A stretch of 64,000 nucleotides of DNA, from positions 1 to 64,000 of the forward strand of contig NZ_JAATOO010000015.1 of NCBI RefSeq assembly GCF_011806575.1, written 5' to 3'. Source of the stretch: Vibrio hepatarius. GTDB lineage: Bacteria > Pseudomonadota > Gammaproteobacteria > Enterobacterales > Vibrionaceae. Positions 59,569 to 63,115 of this stretch are shown here, piece after piece. The notes beneath the pieces were generated by a model that was given only the letters and a program-made list of their open reading frames with translations, was not told the origin of the DNA and ran no database searches. The position numbers were made by a program, and so were the translations under genes. The number at the start of each line of letters is the position of its first letter. The stretch's first letter is position 1.

Positions 59569-59598
59569 AAAAAAGCCCCGCTTGGTCAAGCAGGGCTT
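59569..59598 (-). terminator. Terminator of the retropepsin/7TM/ATP-grasp operon
   Basis: AAGCCCCGCTT and AAGCAGGGCTT pair with one mismatch around GGTC; six T's follow on the minus strand. Confidence 0.87.
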
Positions 59599-59615: not shown

Positions 59616-60596
59616 TTAGAACAAGGCTTTTGCGCCAAACTGCTTAGCAGAGTAGGCCACGCGTTGCTCCGGAGTCGGATAATTGGCAGGCATACCAAGC
59701 GTTTCGATATGTTGAAGCCTTGGCAACAAGCCCGCACCATTAGCGATTTGGATAGCCAGTCCTGGGCGAGCGTTAAGCTCAAGTACCATTGGACCTTCTT
59801 CTTTATCCAATACCATGTCTGTGCCCATGTAACCAAGGCCAGTCATTTCCCACGCGCTAGACGCAAGCACCAACAAACGCTCCCAATGTGGAACTTGTAA
59901 CGTTGCTAGGTCTTTACCTGTATCTGGATGATGGGTGATCGGTTGGTCAAACTGTACCGCGCGAATCGCTCTACCCGTCGCAATATCGAGTCCAACGCCA
60001 ACCGCACCTTGGTGCAAGTTCGCTTTGCCGTCAGACGCCGCAGTTGAGCAACGCATCATCGCCATTACCGGGTAGCCTTTGAAGACGATAATACGCACAT
60101 CAGGCACACCTTCGTAACTGAAGCCTTCGAAGCAGTCATCGAACTTAATCAAGTTTTCGACTACTGCGACGTCATTCTTGCCACCCAGCGAAAACAAACC
60201 TGCTAGTGCGTTACTGATGTGGCGTTCAACGTCTTCTTTACCAATCGTTGAACCTGATGGTTTGGTATACACGCCATCTTTGTGCGAAGTAATTACCAGA
60301 ATGCCTTTACCGCCACTGCCTTGCGCAGGTTTGATCACGAACCCAGGCCAGTCTTTGACGATATCGTGAATCGAGCGCACGTCGGCTTGGTTACGGATCA
60401 CGCCGATTAGCTTTGGCACGGTTGCGCCTGCTGCTTCCGCGATGATCTTGGTTTTTAGCTTATCGTCCACCAACGGGTACTTCGAGCGATCATTGTAGCG
60501 ACCAATGTAACTGTGGTTACGTTGATTCATTCCCATGATCCCTTTATGGCGAAGTTTGCCCGGGGTCGTAAAGCGCGAAGTTAAACGTGATAGCAT
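59616..60596 (-). CDS. Alpha-L-glutamate ligase-like ATP-grasp protein
   Basis: The 326-residue cytosolic protein is an ATP-grasp enzyme: FVIKPAQGSGGKGILVI is the nucleotide-binding loop, GVPDVRIIVFKGYPVMAMMR and MVLELNARPGLAIQIAN the metal/ATP end. It resembles RimK-like ligases that add amino acids to a carboxylate, and matches the alpha-L-glutamate-ligase-like / sugar-transfer-type ATP-grasp families; its substrate is not known. It is the third gene of a minus-strand operon, three bases after the 7TM gene, and all three likely act on one envelope product. Confidence 0.85.
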   Translation of the reverse strand: MLSRLTSRFTTPGKLRHKGIMGMNQRNHSYIGRYNDRSKYPLVDDKLKTKIIAEAAGATVPKLIGVIRNQADVRSIHDIVKDWPGFVIKPAQGSGGKGILVITSHKDGVYTKPSGSTIGKEDVERHISNALAGLFSLGGKNDVAVVENLIKFDDCFEGFSYEGVPDVRIIVFKGYPVMAMMRCSTAASDGKANLHQGAVGVGLDIATGRAIRAVQFDQPITHHPDTGKDLATLQVPHWERLLVLASSAWEMTGLGYMGTDMVLDKEEGPMVLELNARPGLAIQIANGAGLLPRLQHIETLGMPANYPTPEQRVAYSAKQFGAKALF

Positions 60597-60599
60597 CGT

Positions 60600-62105
60600 T
60601 TAGTCCTCCGCTAGTGGTTTGAAGCGACGTAGCTCAGTCAAACGGTAACCTGTGTAAGTACCTAGTAGCAGGATGCCTGCTAATACAATCAGTTGTAGAC
60701 CAATGAAGTTAAATGTCAGGTGCTGAATGTATGGGTTGGTCATTGCAAGGTAAACCAGTACCGCAGTTAACAGCGAACCACCACCTTGTAGAACCACTTC
60801 TTTAGCGCCTTCTTCTTCCCACAGAATCGACATACGTTCGATTGTCCATGACAAGATGATCATCGGGAAGAAGGTAATCGACAGACCTTCAGTCAGACCG
60901 ATCTTGAATGCGACAACAGTAAACACCGAGATGATCATAATCACCGTGATGATCACCGCCGAAATCCGCGCGACGAGCAGTAAATTCAGTCGTGACAAGT
61001 AACTTCGTATCACCAGACCCGTACCGACAATCAGCAAGAAGCCGAGAATACCAGTTAGTAGTTGGGTTTGAACAAACGCTACGGCGATAAGCACAGGCAT
61101 GAATGTGCCCGATGTTTTTAAACCTATGATCACGCGCAGGAACACGACAATCAGCGCACCGATTGGGATCAGCATGATGGTCTTAAACATCGCTTGCTCT
61201 TCAAGAGGTAAGCTGTGAATAGAGAAGTTAATCAGGCCGTCAGCTTGTACTTTGTCGTCGGTCGCTTGTTGAGGCGTGACCTCTAGCGCGATCATCGAGA
61301 AGTGAACTTGGCTGTTTTGACCACCCATCAGGTCAAGCAGGGAAATGTTTGACTCATCCCAAACTAGAATGTTTTCAGCAATGACTTGCTGTGCACTTTC
61401 TGGGTTAAACAGTACCCATTTGCTGCCATTCCAAACTTGGTTCATGTGTTGGATTGTTTGACGGCGGCGGCCGTCTTCCAATTCAATCACACCGACGATT
61501 TTACCTGGCACTTGAGCGTATGCGAGAAGCTTGTCGATCGCCTCGACCTTGCTCATGTTATTGAGGATAAGGGAGGCGTTTTGGCTTTCGCTGTCATTAA
61601 TGGCTTTAACCAGCTCGCGAGCAAAAGTGACATCATCTGCTGAGCGTTGGTTTGCAACCGCAATCAATGCTGCGACGGCTGCTTCAGTTGGACCATCAAA
61701 GGTTGGCTTGACGATATCGCCGCTTGGTGGAATCGCTTCCACTTTCGCTTGAGGGTCGACAAGGAATTGTGCCTTGTAGTAGATGGTTTGTGCGCCAACA
61801 GCATGACGAATGGACCACTCTGCACGACGACCCGTTTCAGTGTTGACGTATGAAACGCCATAGCCAGGGGACGATGATGATTCGCCAACTAGGGTAAAAC
61901 CGTTTTGTGTGTGTGGTGCGGCAAGCGATGCTTTAACTGGCGAGCCTTGCGCGTTAAATTCGATGCGAGCTTCGATGTCCCATACCTGACGAGTTTCGCC
62001 CGGAGTCCATGGCACACCATAGCTTTGGTGACGGAATAGACTCAGTGCGATACCCGCGAGAATAAGTAGCACAACTGAAATATAAAAAGGAACTTTAGAC
62101 GTCAT
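60600..62105 (-). CDS. Inactive-transglutaminase/7TM membrane protein
   Basis: The 501-residue protein has a first membrane segment (about residues 8-24), a periplasmic region of about 290 residues with transglutaminase-like stretches (NQVWNGSKWVLFNPESAQ) that appears to lack a catalytic Cys, then about seven membrane helices from residue 318 to 490. I recognise it as the inactive transglutaminase-7TM type (PF14400/PF14402 as I recall). It is followed three bases later by the ATP-grasp gene and preceded by the retropepsin gene. No function is established for it. Confidence 0.83.
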   Translation of the reverse strand: MTSKVPFYISVVLLILAGIALSLFRHQSYGVPWTPGETRQVWDIEARIEFNAQGSPVKASLAAPHTQNGFTLVGESSSSPGYGVSYVNTETGRRAEWSIRHAVGAQTIYYKAQFLVDPQAKVEAIPPSGDIVKPTFDGPTEAAVAALIAVANQRSADDVTFARELVKAINDSESQNASLILNNMSKVEAIDKLLAYAQVPGKIVGVIELEDGRRRQTIQHMNQVWNGSKWVLFNPESAQQVIAENILVWDESNISLLDLMGGQNSQVHFSMIALEVTPQQATDDKVQADGLINFSIHSLPLEEQAMFKTIMLIPIGALIVVFLRVIIGLKTSGTFMPVLIAVAFVQTQLLTGILGFLLIVGTGLVIRSYLSRLNLLLVARISAVIITVIMIISVFTVVAFKIGLTEGLSITFFPMIILSWTIERMSILWEEEGAKEVVLQGGGSLLTAVLVYLAMTNPYIQHLTFNFIGLQLIVLAGILLLGTYTGYRLTELRRFKPLAED

Positions 62106-62124
62106 TATTTTACCTTACTGGCTT

Positions 62125-62874
62125 TTATTTTTTGCTTTTTGACGGTGGTGTTTGGATGTACTTCTTGCTTACATCAACCACGGCGATATCTCGCATAAAC
62201 TCACGGCCTAGTAGCACAGGGTGGCTCATTTGAGATCGATCCGCTAACGTGAACTGGGCTTTCTCGTGGATCTTTCCTAGCTCAACCCAAAGCTCGACAA
62301 CGGCTCTGCGTTCTACATCTTCGTTAGTCGACTGGCGGATTTTTACGTAACGTATAACCGGCGCTTCAATCCAATTATCTTCTGTTGGTGGCGTGTCACC
62401 GTCAGACAAGTGGAATCTCACCCAGTTGTTGCCATTGCGTTCAAACTCTTCGATGTCGATAGCATTGAGAGACGACGTCGCTGCGCCTGTATCTACGCGC
62501 GCATCAAAAGCTTGTTTGATGGTATCGATGGTCACTTTTTCAACTTCGCCAAGAACAATGTTATGGGTCGGCGTCGGTGGCTCTGGTGTTGGAGCAGGGA
62601 TAACAACTGGTGCATTTTTTTTGCGAACTTCTGCGACAACGTCTTTCTTAAGACGAATCATCTCTCTGTCCAGAACCGCAATTTTCTTTTCTAGTGACTC
62701 GATGTAGTCCGTTTGGTTACTAAGCTGAAGCGACAAGTTTTCAAGCTTAGTCGATACGTTCGTTTCAGAAGCCTGAATAGATGCGAGTGTTTCGTTGTGA
62801 TACTGCTCGCCTTTGGTCAAAGAGCAGCCGGACAGAACTGCTAAGGCTACTATTGGAGTCAATCTGGTCAGCAT
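62125..62874 (-). CDS. Retropepsin-like aspartic protease lipoprotein
   Basis: The 249-residue precursor has lipobox LSGC (Cys17), a coiled-coil stalk (about 30-85), a Pro-rich linker (VVIPAPTPEPPTPTH) and a Pfam Zn_protease/RimB-type domain. That domain carries DARVDTGAATSSLNA, with Asp128-Thr129-Gly130 as in pepsin-like retropepsins, and VLLGREFM later. Members were once called ATP-dependent zinc proteases, but the motif is aspartic. It is the first gene of the operon, with 7TM and ATP-grasp proteins downstream. Confidence 0.85.
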   Translation of the reverse strand: MLTRLTPIVALAVLSGCSLTKGEQYHNETLASIQASETNVSTKLENLSLQLSNQTDYIESLEKKIAVLDREMIRLKKDVVAEVRKKNAPVVIPAPTPEPPTPTHNIVLGEVEKVTIDTIKQAFDARVDTGAATSSLNAIDIEEFERNGNNWVRFHLSDGDTPPTEDNWIEAPVIRYVKIRQSTNEDVERRAVVELWVELGKIHEKAQFTLADRSQMSHPVLLGREFMRDIAVVDVSKKYIQTPPSKSKK

Positions 62875-63026: not shown

Positions 63027-63115
63027 CCAACAAAGCATGTGCTACGAGACTAAACGTAAACAAATCGTTATGAGTTAACGCCCTGTCAATTCGTCAAGTT
63101 GAAGTGAGAATTTGT

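Follow-up and report, generated by a model that had tools for sequence, protein, structure and literature searches.

A Vibrio form of the rlo operon pairs a predicted lipoprotein retropepsin with an inactive-transglutaminase membrane protein and an ATP-grasp protein

The window analysed here, 64,000 nucleotides of Vibrio hepatarius (positions 1 to 64,000 of contig NZ_JAATOO010000015.1, NCBI RefSeq assembly GCF_011806575.1), contains on its minus strand a three-gene operon that is, close to certainly, the Vibrio counterpart of the Pseudomonas aeruginosa rlo operon. Its genes encode a retropepsin-like predicted lipoprotein (RloA), a membrane protein with an inactive transglutaminase domain (RloB), and an ATP-grasp protein (RloC). 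The system has already been described—a 2025 mBio paper names rlo (PA14_41690, 41710, and 41730) as a cell-envelope and osmotic-stress system in P. aeruginosa (PMC12239564)—and the window holds a member of it with a distinct protease anchor.

In P. aeruginosa, three secreted RloA proteases are redundant; loss of all three blocks growth in low salt, loss of rloB or rloC rescues it, and the catalytic Asp of RloA is required (PMC12239564). The P. aeruginosa enzyme cuts polyglutamate in vitro, and the operon influences osmotic survival, ampicillin sensitivity, cell shape, and biofilm, while V. cholerae orthologues are mentioned as reported to be VxrB-controlled and functionally unexplored (PMC12239564). 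The original prediction for the window, made from its letters, had presented the operon as an under-described system; publication has overtaken that description, although the authors leave the in vivo substrate of RloA open, with free polyglutamate as one option (PMC12239564). Under rlo names, this paper alone turned up. Elsewhere, suppressor hits mapped to PA1766-PA1768 (PMC7314104), an operon that showed parallel evolution in selection experiments and whose PA1767 mutant had earlier been tied to piperacillin resistance (PMC10127599), and in Shewanella vesiculosa disruption of an inactive-transglutaminase membrane protein led to more vesicle release (PMC12096838). VC1716-VC1719, tried as V. 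cholerae rlo tags, proved wrong (the literature passages show other genes), literature on VC1165-VC1167 with VxrB/WigR gave nothing on rlo, and a word search of PMC4441509 produced no hits.

Results

The three genes are co-directional neighbours in the order A-B-C, separated by 19 bases (rloA-rloB) and 3 bases (rloB-rloC); the open reading frames (ORFs) and both gaps are as originally read, and so are the retropepsin-like site of the first gene product and the ATP-grasp family of the third. RloA matched Zn_protease (PF05618, the Pfam label of its retropepsin family) at 168.3 bits against a cut-off of 27 (E 1.1e-49), and combines the D[TS]G motif with a signal sequence, export being judged from sequence alone. 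RloB scored 189.4 bits with Transglut_i_TM (PF14400) and 362.1 bits with 7TM_transglut (PF14402), each with a cut-off of 25, and is an inactive transglutaminase fused to a 7TM domain. RloC, predicted to be cytosolic, lay far above the cut-offs of both ATPgrasp_ST (335.6 bits, cut-off 31.4) and TIGR02291 (568.6, cut-off 314.2). Scores against the NCBIfam rlo models fell below cut-off (RloA3, 112.9 vs 210; RloA2, 92.7 vs 250; RloA1, 83.8 vs 280; RloB, 359.1 vs 900), and we therefore file the operon as rlo-type rather than under the exact models.

This arrangement was followed through three samples of genomes. The named set came from an RloB search with one genome per species and comprises the best 80 of at least 582 relatives plus the window (81 loci); because only the best 80 were taken, it leans to close kin; among the named relatives found, V. 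hepatarius DSM 19134 is nearest, with 99% RloB identity. Contiguous A-B-C order on one strand was found in 80/81 of these loci, a set that still counts one locus with broken frames (L082), and the sole miss (L074) lies on a contig that begins within rloB. An even draw from the class covered 143 genomes, 25 of them above the PF14402 cut-off, and gave 20 rlo-type loci; gene A was present in 19/20 and gene C likewise in 19/20 (counting the long stop-to-stop frames L004 and L011), the locus without gene C (L018) being close to a contig end. In a draw from the phylum, 58/349 genomes exceeded the same cut-off, and in the 33 loci inspected, which were the top-ranked ones plus five picked by hand, gene A was adjacent in 32 and gene C in all 33. 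Gene A was not seen in L022 or L196. The three genes are thus regular rather than rare neighbours. Two PF14402 matches were dropped: G077 (E 5.1e-4, under cut-off), a 496-residue frame that by eye is a sodium symporter, and G357 (E 0.007), a frame with stops.

The earlier description of RloB as a seven-helix protein with a periplasmic domain can be refined: a single helix at the N terminus precedes a soluble domain that spans residues ~37-276, and residues ~278-501 form the membrane domain. An AlphaFold2 model built from 43 sequences reached a mean predicted local distance difference test (pLDDT) score of 81 and a predicted template modelling (pTM) score of 0.65. In this model, the soluble domain resembles 3isr_A (Z 14.3, root-mean-square deviation (rmsd) 3.9, 214 aligned), a record titled putative cysteine protease, with transglutaminases further down the list. 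The columns of the catalytic Cys, His, and Asp hold a gap, Gln219, and Asn234 in window RloB, which contains no cysteines; the Cys-His-Asp triad of catalytic transglutaminases is lost, in agreement with what had been predicted. The loss is general: in 58 rlo-type RloB sequences (window included), the catalytic Cys column and the 15 columns on either side of it are free of Cys throughout, and the His column never holds His; Asp stands at the Asp column in 18/58. Mean column identity was higher over the membrane domain (79%) than over the whole of RloB (66%). No solved structure resembled RloB by sequence at E 1. Viruses gave no sign of carrying the operon: viral contigs yielded 16 matches to the pattern, none of them a relative, and a BFVD fold search gave no match at E <= 0.001.

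RloC, in comparison, retains its ATP-grasp residues. Lys89, the loop glycines, Asp260, Glu273, and Asn275, which are typical of ATP-grasp catalysis, are identical in more than 97% of 101 sequences. Distant solved relatives by sequence (E 0.004-0.05) are RimK-type glutamate ligases, cyanophycin synthase, and D-Ala-D-Ala ligase; against the RimK-family model itself, RloC scored 41.9 bits (cut-off 143.4).

The predicted lipid anchor of RloA is widespread among close kin. A lipobox, called by an automated rule applied to stop-to-stop frames, together with zero cysteines after the catalytic motif, was found in 77/81 named loci; the other four are L095, with neither lipobox nor Cys, L082 and L092, where the motif is unreadable, and L074, which is cut. 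No Cys follows the motif in the window, nor in any of the 78 named-set rows whose D[TS]GA can be read. A stricter rule missed nine rows (L076-L080, L084, L086, L095, and L120), of which eight pass the later rule and L095 passes neither. The 19 RloA rows of the class draw comprise 13 without a lipobox and with two Cys, one in which two Cys go together with a lipobox-like match, three whose Cys count differs, and a pair (L009, L012) cut upstream and devoid of Cys. Lipoboxes are readable only where the upstream end is present, and most of the 33 phylum loci are cut there. Sequence features thus indicate that the sampled close relatives (Vibrio, Photobacterium, Aeromonas, Halomonas, and others) hold RloA by a lipid anchor, and the Ser at +2 of the window lipobox suggests outer-membrane sorting under the Lol rule. 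The catalytic Asp stands 111 residues after Cys17, and the spacer between them is a probable coiled coil: heptad-like periodicity reached p<0.05 in 36/78 linkers and p<0.01 in 12/78, although these are related sequences and the 36/78 are not independent results. In the available text of PMC12239564, a word search found neither 'lipoprotein' nor 'coiled', and one passage with 'disulfide'.

The RloA protease domain aligns with Legionella 2pma and with 9g58 and 9g59, the RloA crystal structures of PMC12239564. Published residues of P. aeruginosa RloA—the polyglutamate contacts K46, R92, R114, and R137 (PMC12239564), and D48—correspond by count along the 9g58 alignment to window R126, R175, R190, R213, and D128, assuming that 9g58 has no insertions or deletions relative to P. 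aeruginosa RloA between those positions. At all four contact positions, 9g58 itself has Lys or Arg. Across relatives, R190 and R213 are Arg in 80/80 named-set and 19/19 class rows and R175 in 78/80 and 17/19, while position 126 is Arg or Lys in 76/80 named rows (one Gln, three unaligned) and 19/19 class rows. By this alignment, the basic polyglutamate-contact residues are kept in window RloA. The demonstrated cleavage of polyglutamate belongs to the P. aeruginosa enzyme; what window RloA shows is conservation of the binding residues.

Relatives of RloB outside rlo-type loci point to a smaller unit within the operon. In eight genomes (L025/L126, L026/L127, L030/L130, and L198-L202) the Cys-His-Asp triad is intact (8/8), and the gene lies beside an RloC-family ATP-grasp gene and a TPR protein in all eight and beside a barrel-like protein in seven, the eighth cluster stopping at a contig edge. 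No adjacent retropepsin was found in the searched stretches of these clusters, and five of the eight genomes lacked any match to the retropepsin family (two of the five are 88% complete). The barrel-like proteins are homologous to one another; among Pfam calls, L130 matched MtrB_PioB over cut-off, L127 and L198 matched barrel families under cut-off, and L126 matched none. These clusters are likely an export system. Two further genomes hold minimal clusters, L203 (2619-5419) and L204 (2663-5655), that combine a weakly supported barrel-like protein, a stand-alone 7TM protein, and an ATP-grasp protein with no transglutaminase domain; the barrel-like protein, directly upstream of the 7TM gene, ends in Phe. 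As all these clusters share a membrane domain and an ATP-grasp protein, we regard this pair as the usual core, with protease and transglutaminase activity optional. ATP-grasp ligases of this sort and their gene neighbours have reportedly been surveyed by Iyer et al. in 2009.

Additional observations arose from the same searches. The scan of the host genome (4,706,381 bases, 74 contigs) revealed a second lipobox retropepsin (L003, 1498-2061), located apart from rlo and without the coiled-coil spacer. In a Marinagarivorans metagenome-assembled genome, the catalytic motif of RloA (L092, 3606-4451) has lost its T and G, with genes B and C present. A retropepsin with a signal-like start (L129, 5253-5756) is divergent from a lost-triad transglutaminase-7TM gene that has no RloC-type neighbour, and a RimB-RimK-like pair lies directly upstream of the 7TM cluster in L203. 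Five proteobacterial genomes, all belonging to one family, carry long ORFs in which a tandem pair of CapC domains is joined to a further C-terminal part (L031, 1423-3405, and L032-L035).

The window operon is flanked by convergent mukFEB genes on one side and cmoB on the other, and cmoB lies upstream of rlo in the listed Vibrionales and Aeromonadales loci. Directly after cmoB stands a TTGACA-N5-TTAACTC box (Table 1); its TTGACA is exact by eye in 12/18 aligned Vibrio upstream regions, ahead of a terminator-like hairpin. The box was rejected as a shared regulator site, occurring at two places in the genome at up to one mismatch vs five for a backwards control; the second place is near DUF333, DUF218, and serine dehydratase genes.

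Table 1. Features of the rlo operon and its flanks in the window
Feature	Position	Strand	Basis
rloA: retropepsin-like aspartic peptidase, predicted lipoprotein form, 249 aa	62125..62874	-	ORF call, Pfam, PDB relatives
RloA lipobox LSGC, Cys17, Ser at +2	62824..62826	-	sequence
RloA probable coiled-coil spacer, residues ~25-85, approximate limits	62620..62802	-	heptad periodicity p=0.028
RloA catalytic DTG, residues 128-130	62485..62493	-	sequence; aligned with 9g58, 9g59
rloB: N-terminal helix, inactive transglutaminase domain, and 7TM_transglut, 501 aa	60600..62105	-	ORF call, Pfam, AlphaFold2
RloB inactive transglutaminase-like domain, residues ~37-276	61278..61997	-	AlphaFold2, 3isr_A match, triad lost
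RloB membrane domain, residues 278-501	60603..61274	-	PF14402, column identity
rloC: ATP-grasp ligase-like protein, 326 aa	59616..60596	-	ORF call, Pfam, NCBIfam
Terminator-like hairpin and T run, 3' of rloC	59569..59598	-	by eye
TTGACA-N5-TTAACTC box, 11-base direct repeat, directly after cmoB	63072..63089	-	sequence

Discussion

We consider it about an even chance that a glutamate-rich peptide is the product of RloC, reaches the periplasm by way of RloB, and is trimmed by RloA. The original prediction had likewise placed a ligase, a membrane protein, and a peptidase on one product, which agrees with the published genetics and with the conservation described above; its idea of RloB as a carrier or exporter is an inference. 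In this scheme, cytosolic RloC, a RimK-related ATP-grasp protein, would build a peptide, either free or carrier-bound, from acidic residues such as glutamate, and the RloB membrane domain, acting with RloC at the inner membrane, would pass or present the product to the periplasm. The dead transglutaminase domain of RloB may bind the product rather than modify it. A predicted lipid anchor and a probable coiled-coil spacer would keep RloA on the periplasmic side, where it would cut the acidic product and keep it short; were RloA lost, a long anionic product would accumulate and low salt would become lethal or growth-blocking. A cell that also lacks RloB or RloC would make no product, which would explain the published rescue. 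The protease-free pairing of membrane domain and ATP-grasp protein beside TPR and barrel-like genes fits a product that is made and exported.

Several observations weigh against this scheme. The genetic evidence comes from Pseudomonas, whose RloA is built differently, and our literature search found no report of an isolated rlo product or of RloC activity. Profile and fold searches give transport no support. Modelled alone (pLDDT 70.5, pTM 0.64), the RloB membrane domain had no Foldseek match at E <= 0.001, the top one being 8ahx_A at E 1.5. A second look at folds gave a weak match to the same chain (Z 8.7, rmsd 3.3, 122 aligned), followed by 8a1v_E and 8a1y_D (both Z 7.7) and 7xk7_D (Z 7.3), chains that are presumably RnfA, NqrD, or NqrE subunits; nearly tied were ALMT anion channels (Z 7.1 and 7.0) and 8q3v_C (Z 7.0), which belongs to a sodium-translocating methyltransferase. 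The likeness to Rnf/Nqr is a lead only, because Z values below ~13 can reflect a common arrangement among helical folds and the profiles are silent, the probability against the Rnf/Nqr profile (PF02508) being 0.44%. An internal repeat in the membrane domain was rejected, hhalign of its two halves giving 0.18%. Among the variant clusters, the barrel identity comes from one over-threshold Pfam match and homology to it, and the upstream proteins of L203 and L204 are barrels by eye, with sub-threshold Pfam hits and no match to the other barrels. Finally, two genes that fuse transglutaminase and 7TM domains (L027/L128 and L028/L129) have no RloC-type ATP-grasp gene adjacent, and the core is therefore not absolute.

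The leading alternative, possible but clearly less probable than a trimmed peptide, is conjugation, in which RloC would glutamylate a protein, lipid, or peptidoglycan precursor, RloB would present it, and RloA would remove the tag. It has a precedent in RimB and RimK, where a tag is removed from ribosomal protein S6 in the cytosol and of which the host genome holds a rimB-rimK pair, and the cell-shape, beta-lactam, and vesicle phenotypes of relatives are in keeping with it. On the other hand, no target is known, and the mBio authors came across no protein whose polyglutamate stretches would make it a candidate (PMC12239564); a search for encoded stretches would, however, miss the tag, because it would be added after translation.

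Improbable, in our view, is a signalling role, by which RloB would be a membrane receptor that senses the wall through its dead transglutaminase domain, with RloC as the cytosolic output and RloA as an off-switch that cuts RloB. The published epistasis fits this equally well, the extracytoplasmic domain of RloB is an enzyme fold stripped of catalytic residues, and V. cholerae rlo is reported to be controlled by VxrB, part of a VxrAB system that, in the source passages, responds to envelope stress; but RloC retains its ATP-grasp catalytic residues, and the intact-triad relatives adjoin TPR and barrel-like genes. We give very little credence to descent of the RloB membrane domain from a CapC/PgsC-type polyglutamate exporter, since its glycine and proline motifs resemble CapC domains by eye but hhalign against CapC (PF14102) reached at most 2.5% on shallow alignments (a tandem CapC pair itself gave 71%), and Pfam CapC matched neither RloB nor three relatives; like the Rnf/Nqr comparison, these results give transport no backing.

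A broader and rather speculative extension, which we regard as unlikely though not negligible, is that the 7TM_transglut domain and the ATP-grasp protein form a stand-alone machine for amino-acid-polymer synthesis and inner-membrane transfer with interchangeable back ends. One back end, for export, would consist of an outer-membrane barrel, TPR proteins, and a transglutaminase that is still active; in rlo, the transglutaminase would be dead and a protease on a lipid anchor would limit the length of the polymer and hold it in the periplasm. There the polymer would be the peptide equivalent of osmoregulated periplasmic glucans. With the usual two-part core identified, the protease-free relatives beside barrel-like genes may ease finding the product.

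Set against known systems, the window operon is nearest to P. aeruginosa rlo, with which it shares the three families in the same order and keeps the retropepsin motif, the contact residues, the inactive transglutaminase, and the ATP-grasp protein. The two differ in the number of extra secreted retropepsins elsewhere in the genome (one for the window genome, L003; two for P. aeruginosa) and in the protease itself: window RloA is a predicted lipoprotein with no Cys after DTG, whereas the solved Pseudomonas RloA has two C-terminal disulfide cysteines (PMC12239564), a trait that is absent from the window and does not define the operon. The RimB-RimK system of ribosomal protein S6 polyglutamylation, in which RimK synthesizes poly-alpha-glutamate and RimB takes glutamates off (PMC11957791), also pairs a retropepsin with an ATP-grasp ligase and has a copy in the host genome (L002), but it is cytosolic (PMC12239564) and without a membrane partner, and RloC matches ATPgrasp_ST and TIGR02291 instead. 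The intact-triad clusters share the membrane domain and ATP-grasp family with rlo and differ in their live triad, TPR and barrel-like proteins, and lack of an adjacent retropepsin, while L203 and L204 share the same two components and lack the transglutaminase domain. RnfA, NqrD, and NqrE provide the top second-look folds for the RloB membrane domain, yet they show no profile similarity to it, and RloB, unlike them, is cysteine-free.

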